64,000 nucleotides of DNA from a bacterium (GTDB lineage: Bacteria; Joyebacterota; Joyebacteria; Joyebacterales; Joyebacteraceae): the NCBI GenBank assembly GCA_025782395.1, contig JALGZD010000191.1, positions 1 through 64,000 on the forward strand, given 5' to 3'. The position numbers and the translations under genes are program-made. Under the pieces are notes generated by a model. The model saw only the letters and a program-made list of their open reading frames with translations. It was not told the origin of the DNA and did no database searches. Below are positions 1 through 8,222 of this stretch, piece after piece. Position 1 is the first letter of the stretch. Every line of letters starts with the position of its first letter.

Positions 1-629
1 AGAAAGTCCTCAATCCGTGCGATGAGGGCGCGTTCCAGCTCGCGTTCGGAATGCTCTTCGCCCATTTCAAGAAAGTCGAAGGTGTATTCATCTTTCACGG
101 CAAGCTTCGCATGTACACGCTGGCTGGGGGTCAGCGCCTTGTCGAAGTTGGTCTGGCCAAGCAGAGACTTCTCGTAACTCTGGTTCTCGATCTGATGGAT
201 AAGCACGTTCTTGGACCAGCCGAATTTCCGGGTCATGCGGATGTAGAACTGGCGTTCCAGAGGGTCTTTGCGGCGCTGGAGGATGATCAGGTTATGGGTC
301 CAGCCGATTTGTGCAACCAGTGGTTGCACTTTTGGCAGGTCGCAGTACGCGAGGTAGAATTCCCGCATGTAGAAGACATTTCTGCGGGAATAGCCGCTGA
401 CGCCGGGGAACTCCTGACGCAGGTCTGCGGCAAGTTGCTCGGCGATGGCGGCCCCATGATCGGCGTTGGTCTGCCGGACGGCAATCAGCTTGCCGATGTC
501 CCAGTAAAGCGCGACCAGTTCCTTGTTGACCGCTTTGAGGGCTTCGTATTGGGCTGACCGAACGCGCTCCTTCACTTCCGCCAGAAGCACAGCGTAATCG
601 TCAGGTAGCCGCTTCGAGAGTTTGGTCAT
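1..629 (-). CDS. DUF1016/YhcG-family PDDEXK nuclease protein, 3' end outside window
   Basis: The frame starts at ATG 629 and stays open to the left edge, so only the first 209 residues are present. They begin MTKLSKRLPDDYAVLLAEVK and contain VNKELVALYWDIGKLI, SGYSRRNVFYMREFYLAY and GWTHNLIILQRRKDPLERQFYIR, typical of the DUF1016 N-terminal helical domain. In this family a PDDEXK nuclease fold follows; here it would lie beyond the window. The start overlaps the hsdM stop in an ATGA, so the two are translationally coupled. Genes of this family often sit among type I restriction genes between hsdM and hsdS, so a role in restriction or defence is likely but not proven. The family assignment comes from recognised sequence patterns only. 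Confidence 0.8.
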   Translation of the reverse strand, partial: MTKLSKRLPDDYAVLLAEVKERVRSAQYEALKAVNKELVALYWDIGKLIAVRQTNADHGAAIAEQLAADLRQEFPGVSGYSRRNVFYMREFYLAYCDLPKVQPLVAQIGWTHNLIILQRRKDPLERQFYIRMTRKFGWSKNVLIHQIENQSYEKSLLGQTNFDKALTPSQRVHAKLAVKDEYTFDFLEMGEEHSERELERALIARIEDF

Positions 630-2740
630 ATTCCCAACTCCTCGAAGTTTGTCTTGATTGTTGCAGCCAGCTTCACCGCCTCGTTGTTGAGGTCTTCCAG
701 CTCCACATGAATATCGCGCAGGGTCTCCTCAAAGTCAAAATCCTCGTCCACTTCCTCAGGGGCGACGCCGACGTAGCGCCCGGGAGTCAGGCTCCAGTCG
801 TTTGCCTCGATCTCGGCGCGGTCCACCAGCCTGACCAGTCCCTCAACGTCACACAGCTCTGCCTCCGGGAAGCGCTCGGTGAGCCAGTGTGCCTGCCGCC
901 AGAAATAGCGCACCTGCTTGAGCTGCTCAACCACCAACTGGCGGGCCCCGTCCGCGGTCTTCCGGACGCGAATGACGTCCCTGCTCACCCAGGCATCGCT
1001 CTGCTTGGCATCGCATTCCTTCTCGCAGGTCTCAATGAGGCGCGAGGCAAGCTTGTAGAGTAGATCCGTCTGTCTGATAAGGTCACGGCTTGATTCAGCC
1101 AGCGAAGCAAGTCGGTCGACCGCCTGTTTGAGATCGCCGTTGGTAGTCTTCTGCTGTTTCCACGCCGCTTCGTGTTCGGCGATGGCATGCCGGAACGCCT
1201 TGACGTCTGCATAGAAAGCAGGCAGCGCCTCGGTTAGTTCCTTCTGCACCTCGGCGTGAAGTGCGTCGTCAGCCAGCGTGTCCAAGAAAGGTTGTATGAT
1301 ATCGCTAAGGGCATCAAGCGCGGCGACGAAGTCCGGCAGAGGCTGGATGCTCTCGCCGCTTTCGTCCTCGCTGCTGAAACAGCCTGCGCCTTCTTCAATG
1401 GTGTGGCGGCAGTAGCCCGAGACGAGGTCGAGATACTTCTCGGTCTGGCCGCGGTAGAGCCACACCATAGCCAGCAGGTTCCGCCGCTGCTCGGGGCTGA
1501 AGTCGCATATCTTGCGGGTGACCTTGCGGTAGACGTTGCGTGCGTCGATCATCAACACCTTGTCGCGGTGCGCCTCAGGCTTGTCGCGGTTCAGGAACCA
1601 CAACTCGCAGGGCACGGTGCGGGTGTAGAAGAAGTTCGAACGGATGGCGATCATCACATCTACGTCACCGGTCCCCACCAGCTTCTGGCGCACCTTGGCT
1701 TCGCCGCCCCCGGCGCTTGAAGCCTGCGATGACATGACGAAGCCGGCACGCCCGCGTTCGTTCAGGTAGCTATAGAAGTAGCTGATCCAGACGTAGTTGC
1801 CGTTTGAGACCTTGTCCTTCTTGTTGACGCCGGGCAGACCGAAGGGCAGGCGCGGGTCGGTCTTGACCTTGTCCGCGTCGATCTCGTCGACGTTGAATGG
1901 GGGATTTGCCATCACGAAGTCGGCCTTGCCGAGCAGTTCGTGAGGGTCTTCATAGTAGGTGATCGCCTTCTGAATGTCACCTTCGAGGCCATGGACTGCC
2001 AGGTTCATCTTGGCAAGGCGGATGGTGGTGGCGTTCTTCTCCAGACCGCGGAAGGTGAGCCGGTCGGTGGGGTTCTGACCGTGCTCCTCCACAATGCGGG
2101 CGCTCTGCACGAACATGCCGCCGGAGCCGCATGCCGGGTCCAGCACCGTGCCGCCCTCCGGGTCGAGCACGTGGGCGATCAGTGAGACCAACGAGACGGG
2201 CGTGAAGAACTCGCCGGCGTCATGGGCCTTCTGGTCGGCGAACTGAGTCAGGAAGTACTCGTAGATGCGGCCGAAGACGTCGCCCGAGACACGCTTGAGT
2301 TCGTCGGGGTTGAGCGTGCGAAGCAGCTGGCCAATGACATCATTGTCCAGCTCTTCGTACTCGCTCTTGGGTAGAACACCCTGAAGGTTCTGATAGTCCC
2401 TTTCGATCGATTCCATCGCCTCAACAAGCGCGTTGGCGTGGTCCTCGCTGTCGGGCAAAGCCACGAGATAGTCGAACTGCGCCCTTGGCTGCAAGAAGAT
2501 GGCACTCTGCTGAGAGAAGTCCTCCTTGGTGAGCGCGCGCGTCTTGCCTCCGCGAGTCGGCAGGTTAGCCTCAATCTTGTCCTTCACCGCCAAGTAGCGA
2601 CTGTAGGCGTGCCGGAGAAACACCAAGCCCATGACCGGGAGAAAGTACTCGTTGCTGGCGTAGTTGGAATTAGCGCGGAGGGTGTCCGCTGCGCTCCAGA
2701 GGCGCTTCTCGATGGCTTCGATGTGTTCTAGTTGGGCCAA
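626..2740 (-). CDS. hsdM: Type I restriction-modification DNA methyltransferase, M subunit
   Basis: This 704-residue protein is the modification subunit of a type I restriction system and should methylate adenine in DNA using S-adenosylmethionine. The order is an N-terminal helical HsdM_N domain (about 1-150), GEFFTP at 176-181, SAM-binding motif I DPACGSGGMF at 201-210, and the catalytic NPPF at 279-282. The C-terminal 250 residues are long, charged and helical, longer than in many HsdM proteins. The start is a TTG with GGAG six bases upstream (CGGAGTGAGCA-TTG). Its stop overlaps the next gene in an ATGA. No specificity (HsdS) or motor (HsdR) subunit is visible, so those genes probably lie further left. 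The family call is firm; whether the system is complete cannot be judged. Confidence 0.95.
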   Translation of the reverse strand: MAQLEHIEAIEKRLWSAADTLRANSNYASNEYFLPVMGLVFLRHAYSRYLAVKDKIEANLPTRGGKTRALTKEDFSQQSAIFLQPRAQFDYLVALPDSEDHANALVEAMESIERDYQNLQGVLPKSEYEELDNDVIGQLLRTLNPDELKRVSGDVFGRIYEYFLTQFADQKAHDAGEFFTPVSLVSLIAHVLDPEGGTVLDPACGSGGMFVQSARIVEEHGQNPTDRLTFRGLEKNATTIRLAKMNLAVHGLEGDIQKAITYYEDPHELLGKADFVMANPPFNVDEIDADKVKTDPRLPFGLPGVNKKDKVSNGNYVWISYFYSYLNERGRAGFVMSSQASSAGGGEAKVRQKLVGTGDVDVMIAIRSNFFYTRTVPCELWFLNRDKPEAHRDKVLMIDARNVYRKVTRKICDFSPEQRRNLLAMVWLYRGQTEKYLDLVSGYCRHTIEEGAGCFSSEDESGESIQPLPDFVAALDALSDIIQPFLDTLADDALHAEVQKELTEALPAFYADVKAFRHAIAEHEAAWKQQKTTNGDLKQAVDRLASLAESSRDLIRQTDLLYKLASRLIETCEKECDAKQSDAWVSRDVIRVRKTADGARQLVVEQLKQVRYFWRQAHWLTERFPEAELCDVEGLVRLVDRAEIEANDWSLTPGRYVGVAPEEVDEDFDFEETLRDIHVELEDLNNEAVKLAATIKTNFEELGI

Positions 2741-2776: not shown

Positions 2777-2838
2777 GCTCGCATACCAGCCGCGAGCGTT
2801 CAGGCTGGCGCGGCGGGTGCCAGCGGCGCAGCCGCGCC
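2777..2838. other. Two adjacent inverted repeats in the hsdM leader
   Basis: The 192-base gap between hsdM and the large upstream gene carries two hairpins. The first pairs GCTCGC (2777-2782) with GCGAGC (2792-2797). The second pairs GGCGCGGC (2807-2814) with GCCGCGCC (2831-2838). Neither is followed by a T-run in either direction, so they are not convincing intrinsic terminators. They could be a REP-like element or a structured leader of hsdM. No gene is visible in the gap. Confidence 0.45.
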
Positions 2839-2932
2839 TGCAACCGGTGTGACAGCCAAGCTCGTCGGCTGCTTGCGCTGGCTGGGCGGCGGGCTCAGCT
2901 ACCAAGTGACATAGCACGCATCACACTGGCCT

Positions 2933-5900
2933 CTAGGGACGCCAAGATATCTCGCCGAATCTGACTTCGGTGCTGGCGGTCAGCTTCTCGATCTCGGTGG
3001 TGAACTCGTGCACTTGGCTATCCCGCCACACGAAGCCGGCAGGCAGCTGTAGTGCGCGCCACAAACCAGAGCCGGCAATTGCCAAGGTCGCGATACCATC
3101 GGGCAGCCCCGACTCCCGATCCTTGATGGCCAGCTTCAAGCGGCTCAAGTGCTCCCAGAAGCGGCTCCCATGGATTTCGGGAGTGAGTCCGAGACGGTAT
3201 ACCAGTGTACCGACGAAGTCACATCGGATGACCAGGATGCGTGCATGGATGTTGGTTCCCCTCTGCGCTGCTAGAAGCTCCGACAAGACGGCTTGAGCAT
3301 TCCTTCGGGCTCCCCGCCCGGAGAGAAAGATGTGCTTCTCGTCGTTGTCCGAATCCAGATCCCCGTTCCAGCAGTGGATCTCCTCTTGGGCAAACGTGAT
3401 GGACCTAGCGACTCGGCGAAGACGGTCATTGATCTGCTTCTTGAAGGCGCGGACACGTTCACGATGCTCGTCCACGGCCTGGTCGGATGGCAATCCGGTG
3501 GCGGTTGAGTTACGGATGTCATACCAAACCAAGTACTTGTACTGGCGCCGGAACGGGAGCCGTCCGAATTCCCCAATTGTCGGAACGACCTCGTCACCAA
3601 GCGAAGCGATACGAGCATCTATATCCCGGATGTACCGTGTGCACCAGCCAAGGACAGCTTCGCCCTTGTGCTTGTGCCCCTCTGCACTGAATAGACTCAA
3701 TTGTCTGGATGGGTCTGGCGAGGCCTGCTCGATCTGGCGCGCGTGGCTCCTAAGTCTCCTGTACAACTTGTAGCCTCGGTCGCTCAATCTGAGTCGGTAG
3801 CGCCGTCTATGATTGTAGTGATCATCGAGCTTCTCAAGGGCCCGTTCCCTCCGGGCACGCACACGTGAGCCCCGGGGACCCAGTTCCATGGCGGCGTCAA
3901 GGATGGAGATCTCTAGTGCGCTCATGACTGCCAACAGCTCCCATACTAGGGCAGCGGATGAATCGATCCAAGGTCCGAAGCGGCGCTCTTCTTCAACAGC
4001 CATCAAGTCCTCTGCGGAACGCCAATAGCCAGCCCAACGTCTTGCCACGAGTTCCATGCCGAGCTCCTCTCGCAGGAATCGTTCACACTGTTTGACGAGC
4101 TTCCCGTGCATGGATGACTTGTGCGCCGCATACTTGAATCGTCCTTGGTTCAGTGCCAAGCTACCGGTGCCTCTCGCAAGACTGTCCGAGAAACCGAGCA
4201 AGCTGCGTTGCGAGTGCCAATCCACCGCCTCGAGTTCCGTTGCCCCGTGTCTGCGCCACCACTTCATGAAGTAGACCAGTTCGGCATGCATGGCGCCTGC
4301 GAGCATCCTAGGGGGCCAGCAAACAGCCAATATCGTGAGTTTGTCGCCATCGAGCGGGGGTATCGCGCGCTTGGGCACGCGGTGCTTCCCCCGAGAGCGA
4401 AGCAGTAGCCCAAGAATGCTGCCAAGCTCGAAGGCGAAATCTGGCGCCTCGGTGCGATGGTGATTGGCGTCTATCCGCTTGCCCGGTGCGTACCGCTCGT
4501 TCACCTTCGTTATGACGCGTCGCTGAAGCATGTAGTCCGTTAGCCACAGGTCGCGGTCAGGATAGGACCGTGGCTCAACCGTGACCTTAGCAATCGGCCC
4601 CATTGGGGCGAATTCGATGCGAGCTGTTCCCTCGGCTCCTGTCGTCCCGAAGAAGGGCTCGATGTATTGCTGGGCCATACCAATTCTGAGCAGCAACACA
4701 AGCGTCTTCTCAAATGCGATCTTCGGAGCACTGGAGACCTTGAGTTCGCCAATGAGTCCCTGCAACGCTTGTTGGCCCAAAGCCAGCTCCGCATCCGCGA
4801 AACGGGCATCTTCTCCGTGCCGGTAGGCCCGAAAGACAACGCCGTTTCGAAAACACGTCGTGGGGACCGCTATGCCGTAATCGTTGAGAACATCGAGAGC
4901 TGAACTGAGGAGATTCGTCTGCTGTGTGCTGGAGGGGATGCCAGCCAGTTCCAGGAAGTGGCGAGATAGGGACTCCCATGGAATTCCCGTCGTGAGTCTG
5001 TCTCTGTGAGGCGCTTCCTTCGGATCGGCATCAAGGACTCGTTGCTTGAGGCGCCTCGCCTCGAGGCGCGCTGGAATCTCCCTCGAGTCGAATAGGTCTG
5101 TGAATGTCTGGGTGAAGAACGCCAGAAGATTGTCGGGAAGCCGATTGGACTTCCCTTGGAGCGATTCGAAGCCGTATTCCGCTATCGACTGCGGCATTGT
5201 AGCTGGATGCGGCGCAGCGGTGCGGCGTTGGAGTTGCGCCTGTCGAAGCGAACGGTACTCCACTCGGTGAAGAGGGTCGTCGAGCGAGCACCGCCACGGT
5301 CCAAACACTCGCTGAGCAACACGGGGGTCAAAGCTCGCGCTTTCGCACACGCCTGCCTGCTGCAACGTAAGGAAGAAACGCTGCCCGACAACCAGGCTGA
5401 CCAGATACTGAAGTGCTCTCTGAGAGGCGGCTGGGGCACTGACGGAGTTGCGCAGTCTCTCTGCTGCAGACTGAGCGTTGTCCGGGAACACTGAGACTAC
5501 CAACCGAAGAGCCTCATCGACGGATTCCGGAGAGAGAGAACTCACAGTGACCAGAGGAACCGTCTGGAGCCAGTACTTGCCGCGCCCGCGCCTGATATAC
5601 GTTCTCACCTTCACGATTTCGAGACACCGCATCAGGTCTTCCCCCAGCAACGCCTCGAGGTCGTGACGGACTGTGCCTCCAGGGAAGAAGGACACCGTAG
5701 TGATGCCGTTTCTGTGCTGCAGCGAACTCGACACGTCATGTGCCGACCAGTCAAGAAGCACGGGTATGCCGCCGACCTCTCCCTTCGATAGGGGAAGGGC
5801 ATAGGACATCGGGAAGTCGACAACATAGGGCCTTGGTGCAAGCGACAGAGCTCGCACCTCAGATGTGCAAAACGACATTACACGAGCATCAGGCATGCGA

Positions 5901-6289
5901 ACTGACACGAAGTCAGGCTGAATCAGCTCAGGCACCCACCAATCGGTGTCAACGCAGAATGTGTGCGTACTAACGTCACATCCTAGCTCGGACACCAAGA
6001 AGCGACGAGCAGTTGCTAGCGTTGTGCCAACGATTAGAGTGTCATCAACAAGAGCGACGCGCGACCCGCGCAACGGCTCGCAGTCGGCGTCCAAGACTCT
6101 GTCAGTGAGCACTGGCCTCTCGATTGGTGGAGCTCCCGCCGCGACAAGGACATCGTACAAACAGAGTGATTTCCTAGCCATGAAGACAACCGCGTCTGCG
6201 TCAATCTGCGCGAGATGGTTGCCGTAGTCGATCAGCAGCGGCACAAGGTCCGGCTCGAACTGACTTAGAACTACATCTCTCCAACTCAT
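2933..6289 (-). CDS. Large protein with N-terminal phosphoribosyltransferase signature and C-terminal nucleotidyl-cyclase-like domain
   Basis: I chose ATG 6289 because AAGGAG lies five bases upstream; an upstream in-frame start adds 11 residues. The 1118-residue product has a type I phosphoribosyltransferase-like region at its N-terminus: VALVDDTLIVGTTL (VDDTLIVGTT about 81-90) matches the PRPP-binding loop, preceded by a Rossmann-like strand (DADAVVFMARKS). The middle 700 residues are mostly helical and unrecognised, with a basic stretch (RYRLRLSDRGYKLYRRLR). Near the C-terminus YKYLVWYDIRNST (Asp924) followed 53 residues later by CWNGDLDSDNDEKHIF (Asp977), then HARILVIRCDFVG, resembles the two metal-binding aspartates and strand pattern of class III nucleotidyl cyclases. 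There is no signal peptide or membrane segment, so it should be cytoplasmic. It sits upstream of hsdM on the same strand. A conflict or defence signalling role is inferred; no function is established. The PRTase call is fairly strong, the cyclase call moderate. Confidence 0.75.
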   Translation of the reverse strand: MSWRDVVLSQFEPDLVPLLIDYGNHLAQIDADAVVFMARKSLCLYDVLVAAGAPPIERPVLTDRVLDADCEPLRGSRVALVDDTLIVGTTLATARRFLVSELGCDVSTHTFCVDTDWWVPELIQPDFVSVRMPDARVMSFCTSEVRALSLAPRPYVVDFPMSYALPLSKGEVGGIPVLLDWSAHDVSSSLQHRNGITTVSFFPGGTVRHDLEALLGEDLMRCLEIVKVRTYIRRGRGKYWLQTVPLVTVSSLSPESVDEALRLVVSVFPDNAQSAAERLRNSVSAPAASQRALQYLVSLVVGQRFFLTLQQAGVCESASFDPRVAQRVFGPWRCSLDDPLHRVEYRSLRQAQLQRRTAAPHPATMPQSIAEYGFESLQGKSNRLPDNLLAFFTQTFTDLFDSREIPARLEARRLKQRVLDADPKEAPHRDRLTTGIPWESLSRHFLELAGIPSSTQQTNLLSSALDVLNDYGIAVPTTCFRNGVVFRAYRHGEDARFADAELALGQQALQGLIGELKVSSAPKIAFEKTLVLLLRIGMAQQYIEPFFGTTGAEGTARIEFAPMGPIAKVTVEPRSYPDRDLWLTDYMLQRRVITKVNERYAPGKRIDANHHRTEAPDFAFELGSILGLLLRSRGKHRVPKRAIPPLDGDKLTILAVCWPPRMLAGAMHAELVYFMKWWRRHGATELEAVDWHSQRSLLGFSDSLARGTGSLALNQGRFKYAAHKSSMHGKLVKQCERFLREELGMELVARRWAGYWRSAEDLMAVEEERRFGPWIDSSAALVWELLAVMSALEISILDAAMELGPRGSRVRARRERALEKLDDHYNHRRRYRLRLSDRGYKLYRRLRSHARQIEQASPDPSRQLSLFSAEGHKHKGEAVLGWCTRYIRDIDARIASLGDEVVPTIGEFGRLPFRRQYKYLVWYDIRNSTATGLPSDQAVDEHRERVRAFKKQINDRLRRVARSITFAQEEIHCWNGDLDSDNDEKHIFLSGRGARRNAQAVLSELLAAQRGTNIHARILVIRCDFVGTLVYRLGLTPEIHGSRFWEHLSRLKLAIKDRESGLPDGIATLAIAGSGLWRALQLPAGFVWRDSQVHEFTTEIEKLTASTEVRFGEISWRP

Positions 6290-6522
6290 GGCAACTCCTT
6301 GCGAACGGCCTCTTCGAGGCACAAATGCAGCTTTCGCCGTGTGCGGCGCATCTCACCAGTCCACATCAGACAATGACGGCGTTTATCGATCCTGGCCCGC
6401 CGTGCTTGAAGATGTGGCTCTAGTCGGACTTGGGGTGTCGCTGGGCTCATTGACATGATCCAGAGTCCCACGATGTCACGAACGCCGTCAACCGCTTCAC
6501 AGCCATTATCGTGAGAATACAT
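6286..6522 (-). CDS. Possible small basic protein coupled to the PRTase-cyclase gene
   Basis: This 78-codon frame ends in a TGA that overlaps the ATG of the large downstream gene (ATGA at 6289-6286), an arrangement repeated at several real gene junctions in this window. The product is cysteine- and arginine-rich: RRARIDKRRHCLMWTGEMRR and TRRKLHLCLEEAVRKELP form a basic helical C-terminus. No clear ribosome-binding site precedes ATG 6522, and an internal ATG further in is no better, so the start is uncertain and the frame may be chance. I recognise no family. If real, it would be the first gene of the PRTase-cyclase unit. The rest of the 6290-6574 gap holds nothing I can name. Confidence 0.35.
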   Translation of the reverse strand: MYSHDNGCEAVDGVRDIVGLWIMSMSPATPQVRLEPHLQARRARIDKRRHCLMWTGEMRRTRRKLHLCLEEAVRKELP

Positions 6523-6574
6523 CAGGCATGAGCAGCAATCAAATCTCTTATGGGAACTTGCGCGGCAGACACGT

Positions 6575-8164
6575 TCAGCCCCCCCGCCCTGAGATCTCCG
6601 CCTCCCCGAGCAGCGCTGCGACGCCCGCCAGCTGCGCGGGCTGGGAGCCATCGTAGCAGCAGAGGATGGCGTCGGCGCCCTCCACCGTGTGCGCCAACTG
6701 CGGCCCGGCGAAGAGCAGGGCGATAGACTGCCACGAAGCAGCAAGGAGCCGCGTGATCACGGCGGCGACGGTTCCGTCGGGGCCGGAGTGCCCCTTCCAC
6801 GCGGATATCTCATCGAAGAGAGCGATGATGCAGAGCTCGGAGGTCAAAGCGTTATCGATGATGCCGCTGGCCTCGGCCTCAGAGCAGTCCACGTCGAGAA
6901 TGATGAGTTCCGCTCCGGGGAACTGCGACTCAAGCCGCTCACGTAGCCAAGTCACGCCATCGGGTTGCTTCGGATCCGTCACCGCTACGAGTGACACCGC
7001 ACCTGAGAGCACTTCGGCCGGAAGAGGTATCAGGCCTGTCTCATCTGAGAGGAGCGTCACGCCACGAGTAGCAATCGCTGCCGCCACTGTTGCGGGCTCC
7101 TCAAATGTGATCCCGAGGCCCTCGGAGAGGCCTCCCGGCGCCGGACCCGGCATCGCACGCGATGCGAGCCATCCGAGAAGCTCCTCCGCCCGGGCAATCG
7201 AAGCATCAAGTCGTTCCTCTGACAGCCGACCACTCTCAGTTGCTTCCACGATGCCGTCTATCGCAGCCTCCACGTCAGGGGGCATCAGGAGCATATCCGC
7301 GCCAGCCTCAAGCGCGAGCACTACGGCCTCGCCCGGCCCGTAGCTCTCGGTGATCCCACCCATGAGGAGCGCGTCGGTCACTACAAGCCCTTCAAAGCCG
7401 AGGTCCCCCCGAAGAAGTGCAGTGGAGATATCAGGCGCGAGTGTTGCGGGCAGGCTGTCCGTGGAACGGCTGTCGCTCGCATTCGACTGGAGCCCCGGAT
7501 ACGCCACGTGCGCCGTCATGATCACCTTGACGCCTTCATCGATCGCTGCTCTGAATGGAACCAGCTCACGGGCATGAATCGTCGCGCTGTCTGCATCCAC
7601 TACCGGAAGCTCTATGTGCGAGTCGCGCTTCGTATCACCGTGACCGGGGAAGTGCTTGGCGGTCGCCGCAACTCCTGCAGCCTGCAGACCCCGCACGAAC
7701 GCACACGTGAAATCTGCGACCATTGAGGGCTCGGTTCCGAACGCGCGCACACCGATGATTGGATTTGTGGGCTCTGAATCGACGTCGGCGACCGGGGCAA
7801 AAACGAGGTTGATACCCACACGTCGAGCTTCCGAGCCAGTCACCCAGCCTTGCGCCTGGGCGAGCCTAGGGTCACCCGTGGCGCCGCACATCGCGAGCGA
7901 AGGGAATGCTGTGGCGCCCCGAACCTGTTGGCCGAGTCCACGCTCTAGGTCGGATGCGACAAGAAGTGGGAAGGCGGAGCACTCCGAGAGTCTGCGGATC
8001 ATCTCCGGCGTGCGGTCAGCCTGGCCGCCGAAGAGGCAGAGGCCGCCAATACCGAGATCGCGGATCTCATGCTCAACGCGCGCGTACTCGACGCTTGGAT
8101 CGTCCCCAGCCCGATCGGAGATGTGGCTCATGATGAGCCGCGCGGCCTTACCTCTGATGTTCAT
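6575..8164 (-). CDS. nagZ: Glycoside hydrolase family 3 beta-N-acetylhexosaminidase (NagZ-like)
   Basis: This family removes N-acetylglucosamine from GlcNAc-anhydroMurNAc (peptides) during murein recycling. I chose ATG 8164, which has GGGGAG seven bases upstream, over a GTG five codons earlier. Counting from that GTG, the hallmark KHFPGHGDT is at 175-183 with DSH at 186-188 (the mobile catalytic loop), and the nucleophile Asp is in GLVVTDAL at about 269. The protein is some 190 residues longer than E. coli NagZ. The extra C-terminal part, from about residue 350, resembles the Rossmann-like second domain of longer GH3 enzymes. No signal peptide is seen, which fits a cytoplasmic enzyme. It follows anmK by 58 bases in the murQ-anmK-nagZ unit, which supports the substrate. 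Confidence 0.92.
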   Translation of the reverse strand: MNIRGKAARLIMSHISDRAGDDPSVEYARVEHEIRDLGIGGLCLFGGQADRTPEMIRRLSECSAFPLLVASDLERGLGQQVRGATAFPSLAMCGATGDPRLAQAQGWVTGSEARRVGINLVFAPVADVDSEPTNPIIGVRAFGTEPSMVADFTCAFVRGLQAAGVAATAKHFPGHGDTKRDSHIELPVVDADSATIHARELVPFRAAIDEGVKVIMTAHVAYPGLQSNASDSRSTDSLPATLAPDISTALLRGDLGFEGLVVTDALLMGGITESYGPGEAVVLALEAGADMLLMPPDVEAAIDGIVEATESGRLSEERLDASIARAEELLGWLASRAMPGPAPGGLSEGLGITFEEPATVAAAIATRGVTLLSDETGLIPLPAEVLSGAVSLVAVTDPKQPDGVTWLRERLESQFPGAELIILDVDCSEAEASGIIDNALTSELCIIALFDEISAWKGHSGPDGTVAAVITRLLAASWQSIALLFAGPQLAHTVEGADAILCCYDGSQPAQLAGVAALLGEAEISGRGG

Positions 8165-8222
8165 CTCCGTGCTCCCCACGTGTGCGCATGCTCGGGCGGG
8201 TTGAGCTCCCCACGGCTACGCG

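Follow-up and report, generated by a model that had tools for sequence, protein, structure and literature searches.

The window, a stretch of 64,000 nucleotides that starts with the first base of a 97-kb contig, encodes an 1118-aa protein (P0001; 2933..6289, minus strand) that joins an N-terminal PRTase domain to a C-terminal domain which, judging by its structural model, is likely but not proven to be a nucleotide cyclase/polymerase domain of the palm fold. The gene is very rare and lies in a chromosomal hotspot that exchanges alternative defence genes. PRTases and palm cyclases with links to defence are each known already. The new element is their fusion, whose cyclase half is likely in the light of the model. 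The initial annotation knew of no described system with this exact fusion, and we found none in the collections of genomes, phages, plasmids and viral sequences or in the papers that were searched, so that the combination is apparently undescribed. Our tentative reading, which we hold at somewhat less than even chances, is that of a single-gene, hotspot-borne anti-phage protein in which a PRTase effector is combined with a palm-type sensor or signal domain.

The gene and its product

The gene is real. It consists of one open frame running from an ATG at 6289 to a stop at 2933, with a good ribosome-binding site (AAGGAG, 6295-6300) 5' of the ATG, and all the parts of the protein described below are accordingly on the minus strand. 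Its codon usage is unlike that of the neighbouring genes, as would be the case for a gene that is variable or acquired. This atypical usage, together with the failure to find a full-length homolog, could also be expected of a decayed or mis-assembled frame without function. Yet 1118 open codons behind a good ribosome-binding site, and PRTase motifs retained at 24% identity to a homolog, make such an origin extremely improbable. The motifs on which the initial annotation was built are present in the translation at the residues it gave, namely VDDTLIVGTT at 81-90, Asp924 in YDIRNST and Asp977 in NGD.

The N-terminal PRTase domain

Homology and motifs show that the N-terminal 310 residues comprise a PRTase domain and its own C-terminal extension, the PPi-loop and PRPP-loop motifs being intact. 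Searched alone, the protein gave weak PRTase matches in NCBIfam (E 0.007-0.1) and among PDB sequences (E 0.13), and its N-terminal piece matched Pfam Pribosyltran at E 0.042. A stand-alone protein of 339 aa from another genome (G1124, contig L039) aligns to residues 30-306 with 24% identity (BLASTP E 9e-10). The PRTase alignment between the two reaches a z of ~20 against block shuffles, and the 339-aa protein itself matches Pribosyltran at E 2.9e-6. A profile made of these two proteins revealed a second homolog in G1124, 11 kb from the first, which makes up the C-terminal portion of a 626-aa protein. A profile built from all three sequences retrieved PRTases of known structure (PRPP synthetases, APRT, OPRT and HGPRT; best E 1.5e-5) and, weakly, the structure of ShosT (E 0.064).

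The PRTase domain itself spans residues 1-165 (5795..6289). Invariant in the three homologs are D32; R39 and K40 of the putative PPi loop (ARK, residues 38-40; 6170..6178); and D82, D83 and G88 of the PRPP loop (VDDTLIVGTT; 6020..6049), which aligns to that of PRTase structures. The extension (residues 166-310; 5360..5794) is shared with both G1124 homologs and has K227, R229, Y231, V244 and P245 invariant. The PRTase assignment of the initial annotation is thus strongly supported, with homology along both the domain and the extension, and we regard it as settled as far as homology and motifs go. We infer that the protein catalyses a PRTase reaction. Structure prediction, which the initial annotation had proposed for both ends of the protein, was informative at one of them: the single-sequence AlphaFold model of the N-terminus (pLDDT 38.8) matched no structure, whereas the C-terminal model matched palm folds, if weakly.

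The C-terminal cyclase-like domain

The C-terminal domain (residues 905-1118; 2936..3577) probably adopts a palm fold. The single-sequence AlphaFold model of residues 881-1118 has a mean pLDDT of 48.8 and a pTM of 0.54, with pLDDT values of 62-82 over the first strand and helix. When this model was compared with the PDB by Foldseek, Cmr2/Cas10 came first (E 4.5e-3, probability 0.87-0.90), followed by class III cyclases, soluble guanylate cyclase, GGDEF domains and the Anabaena uridylate cyclase 8jsz. Around 34 of the first 50 matches were Cas10, class III cyclases or GGDEF domains, all of one superfamily; these palm-type matches are mutually related and hence not independent, their TM-scores are low (0.2-0.4), and no E-value falls below 1e-3. 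The matches further include ferredoxin-like folds of other kinds (MoaC, amidase dimerisation domains and the IS608 transposase). Nothing clear emerged in addition from a search of viral structures. The elements of the model follow each other in palm order: strand 917-925, helix, hairpin, strand 984-991, helix and strand. In this weak model, Asp924 (3518..3520), at the end of the first strand, and Asp977 (3359..3361), in the hairpin preceding strand 984-991, fall at the positions of the metal-binding acids of the palm fold, making both candidate metal ligands.

The two aspartates had been described as spaced like those of class III cyclases, and this did not hold. They are 53 residues apart, against 43-45 in nearly all the class III cyclases that we extracted from genomes and 44 in EaPycC (D102/D146; PMC11224242). 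The spacing in the mCpol protein KpOptS is 51 residues (D6/D57; PMC12657218). A profile of 27 genomic class III sequences scored the domain no better than shuffled copies of it, and neither the family libraries, including the Pfam cyclase families, nor a search of PDB sequences recognised the domain. As regards the cyclase identity proposed initially, the fold therefore suggests it, in a weak model, while the sequence profile does not. The domain is unlikely to be an ordinary class III enzyme, and its likely place is within the superfamily of Cas10, mCpol, GGDEF and class III proteins. Given this model, we put catalytic activity of the domain at even chances.

A defence hotspot beside nagZ

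The gene lies downstream of a nagZ-like gene (glycoside hydrolase family 3; 6575..8179, minus strand) which, from Pfam and the comparison of sister genomes, is the conserved border of a hotspot. In this genome (G000) it is followed by hsdM, a type I restriction-modification methylase (626..2740, minus strand; Pfam N6_Mtase E 8e-74), and by a gene of the DUF1016/YhcG nuclease family (3..629, minus strand; Pfam DUF1016_N E 9e-45) that is truncated by the contig end. Both adjoin it downstream on the same strand, as noted initially. The comparison with sister species delimits a variable segment (2815..6484, minus strand), which in one of them (G002) is occupied by two genes, one for a small basic protein and one of the DUF4238 family (E 7e-34), followed by hsdM and DUF1016 genes with 95% DNA identity to those of G000. 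In a second (G003), the slot holds a DNA methylase, an insertion sequence, another type I system, a DUF1016 gene and a specificity subunit, and in a third (G001) it holds a TIR/SEFIR protein (L081:516-1466, minus strand; TIR_2 E 1e-21). The slot thus has a different content in every one of the three sister species readable at nagZ, and the fusion protein had no match in four congeners. This locus is hence a hotspot, with the fusion gene at a site of exchange between alternative defence genes.

The restriction genes are neighbours of the fusion gene, not its partners. Since the gene is on the same strand and 192 bp upstream of hsdM, one might take its product for an auxiliary subunit of the type I system next to it. 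This is very unlikely, because G002 keeps its 95% identical hsdM and DUF1016 genes with the DUF4238 gene in place of the fusion gene. No Rfam family matched near the gene, and so there is no sign of a retron RNA.

Just 3' of the fusion gene lies an imperfect inverted repeat (2780..2879, minus strand) that is also present after both slot genes of G002 (L079, 788-887 and 1916-1991). The copies measure ~80-120 bp, with conserved ends that form the inverted repeat and a variable centre, and one of them begins with GCCTAAC. They resemble integron attC sites, in which case the slot genes would be cassettes. The repeat folds no better than its shuffles, and its right-hand box does not fit what we take to be the attC consensus. 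The contigs of G000 and G002 both break off within the DUF1016 gene, pointing to a repeat or a variable region just beyond.

Rarity of the protein and the defence island of its homologs

Searches with the whole protein (in its own phylum, in diverse genomes, in viral contigs, plasmids and phages, and by pattern scans of 84,980 genomes) returned nothing except G1124, the sole convincing match among 291 genomes of another phylum. The pattern scans reach close relatives only, and the sensitive searches covered ~1000 distinct genomes. Some of the scans of viral contigs and genomes were steered by alignments with artificially varied rows around the three motifs; these rows have no evolutionary meaning, and no relative was found. 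The G1124 homologs had no relatives among plasmids and phages either. Weak matches in G405 (a TPR protein), G1101 and G220 (ComF-like) were attributed to chance or to ordinary PRTases. None of the homologs found in these collections carries both a PRTase and a cyclase-like domain.

Both G1124 homologs belong to one island of ~22 kb, encoded on one strand. It starts with genes for a HerA-like ATPase and a 571-aa protein, followed by the 339-aa PRTase, by a nitrilase-like protein akin to PADLOC's DRT nitrilases and by two genes of the pyrimidine pathway (of the OPRT and OMP decarboxylase families). LmuB, LmuA and the 626-aa protein (L060:4727-6607, minus strand) come last. The 626-aa protein consists of a domain resembling restriction endonucleases (OloB-like), then a helix-turn-helix and then the PRTase. 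The 339-aa homolog matches ShosT in PADLOC (E 2.4e-4); the fusion protein itself has no PADLOC match. Because two copies of such a rare module share one defence island, the PRTase module appears to be a part of conflict systems. The link to defence genes expected from the initial annotation was therefore recovered in two independent contexts, the nagZ hotspot and the island of the homologs, where the only two found accompany LmuA, LmuB, the HerA-like helicase and the nitrilase.

The middle region of the fusion protein (residues 311-880; 3650..5359) has no assigned domain: searches of Pfam and of solved structures gave no match. A similarity of residues ~445-485 to part of the 571-aa neighbour in L039 is below significance, with shuffles reaching similar scores.

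Possible role of the fusion protein

PRTases are recurrent probable effectors in anti-phage systems, among them the DprA-linked PRTases and retrons, and in E. coli protection from phages is conferred by a DUF4238 system of one gene as well as by a DprA-PRTase system (PMC9122126). If the fusion protein acts as a single-gene system, the sensing of infection would fall to the middle region or the palm domain, and the palm domain would then bind or cyclise NTPs and so switch on the PRTase of the same protein, which would attack PRPP or transfer phosphoribosyl to a nucleotide or another target. This chemistry would starve the infected cell, making the protein a self-contained abortive-infection protein. 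We favour an effector within the same chain because no recognisable gene for a cyclic-nucleotide-binding effector adjoins the fusion gene; among the adjacent genes, on a contig that ends 2.9 kb downstream, there was neither such a gene nor one for a transmembrane effector. Immune signalling by one protein, in which a mCpol/Cas10-like or divergent class III cyclase at the C-terminus would make or bind a nucleotide that gates the PRTase chemistry at the N-terminus, is possible, if on the unlikely side.

Other explanations of the architecture concern mostly the C-terminal half. The protein could be a PRTase defence effector whose ferredoxin-like C-terminus is non-catalytic, binding a nucleotide or a partner or being structural, so that the two aspartates would be coincidental. 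The negative class III profile, the atypical spacing, the weakness of the model and the matches to MoaC, amidase dimerisation domains and the IS608 transposase all agree with this. Yet nucleotide cyclases or polymerases account for the majority of the best matches, and both acids are placed at active-site positions of the palm fold, which leaves a non-catalytic C-terminus unlikely, if a serious candidate. Alternatively, in the manner of Pycsar or Panoptes, the palm domain might make a diffusible cyclic nucleotide that acts on an effector whose gene lies elsewhere, perhaps past the contig end, with the PRTase sensing or supplying nucleotides. The fold matches to 8jsz and Cas10, and an aspartate spacing close to that of mCpol, would fit. 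We nonetheless find this distinctly unlikely, given that no gene for a cyclic-nucleotide-binding or transmembrane effector adjoins on the contig and that the PRTase homologs occur without a recognised cyclase.

The resemblance to known systems is partial in each case. With ShosT/ShosTA and DprA-PRTase the protein shares a PRTase domain in a probable defence gene, but it has its own C-terminal extension, a middle region and a palm-like domain in one chain. It also differs from ShosTA in having no adjacent DprA-like partner, its immediate neighbours being the nagZ-like gene and hsdM, with the contig ending downstream. Panoptes OptS (mCpol) and Cas10 are approached by the best model matches (Cas10/Cmr2) and by the spacing of the aspartates (53 against 51 in KpOptS; PMC12657218), whereas no sequence similarity to them was detected and no S-2TMbeta, CARF or SAVED effector is adjacent. 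As in Pycsar PycC and class III cyclases, motifs of the DIxNST type and GD occur in the right order, and the 8jsz and Ma1120 cyclases are among the structural matches. In contrast to them, the protein is negative in the class III profile, has a spacing of 53 rather than 43-45 residues and is fused to a PRTase; no PycTM or PycTIR gene was seen beside it before the contig end. If a PRTase is indeed joined here to a signal-nucleotide domain, the protein would link cyclic-nucleotide signalling directly to phosphoribosyl chemistry, and the fusion would bear on the question of how defence PRTases are switched on.

Recurrence of the PRTase module

The rare module of PRTase plus extension recurs with different partners: a restriction endonuclease, a nitrilase operon and a cyclase-like domain. 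This is what is expected of an interchangeable part of conflict systems. The restriction endonuclease fusion of L060 and the nitrilase-PRTase operon of L039 share with the fusion protein the homologous PRTase and extension, in a defence island, but their PRTases have other partners and no cyclase-like domain was seen in them. The L060 fusion (4727-6607, minus strand) is directly upstream of LmuA and is possibly an undescribed Lamassu partner. The nitrilase-like protein, the stand-alone PRTase and the 571-aa protein form a three-gene operon with overlaps of a few bases (L039:8735-13184, minus strand), which is a candidate defence system.
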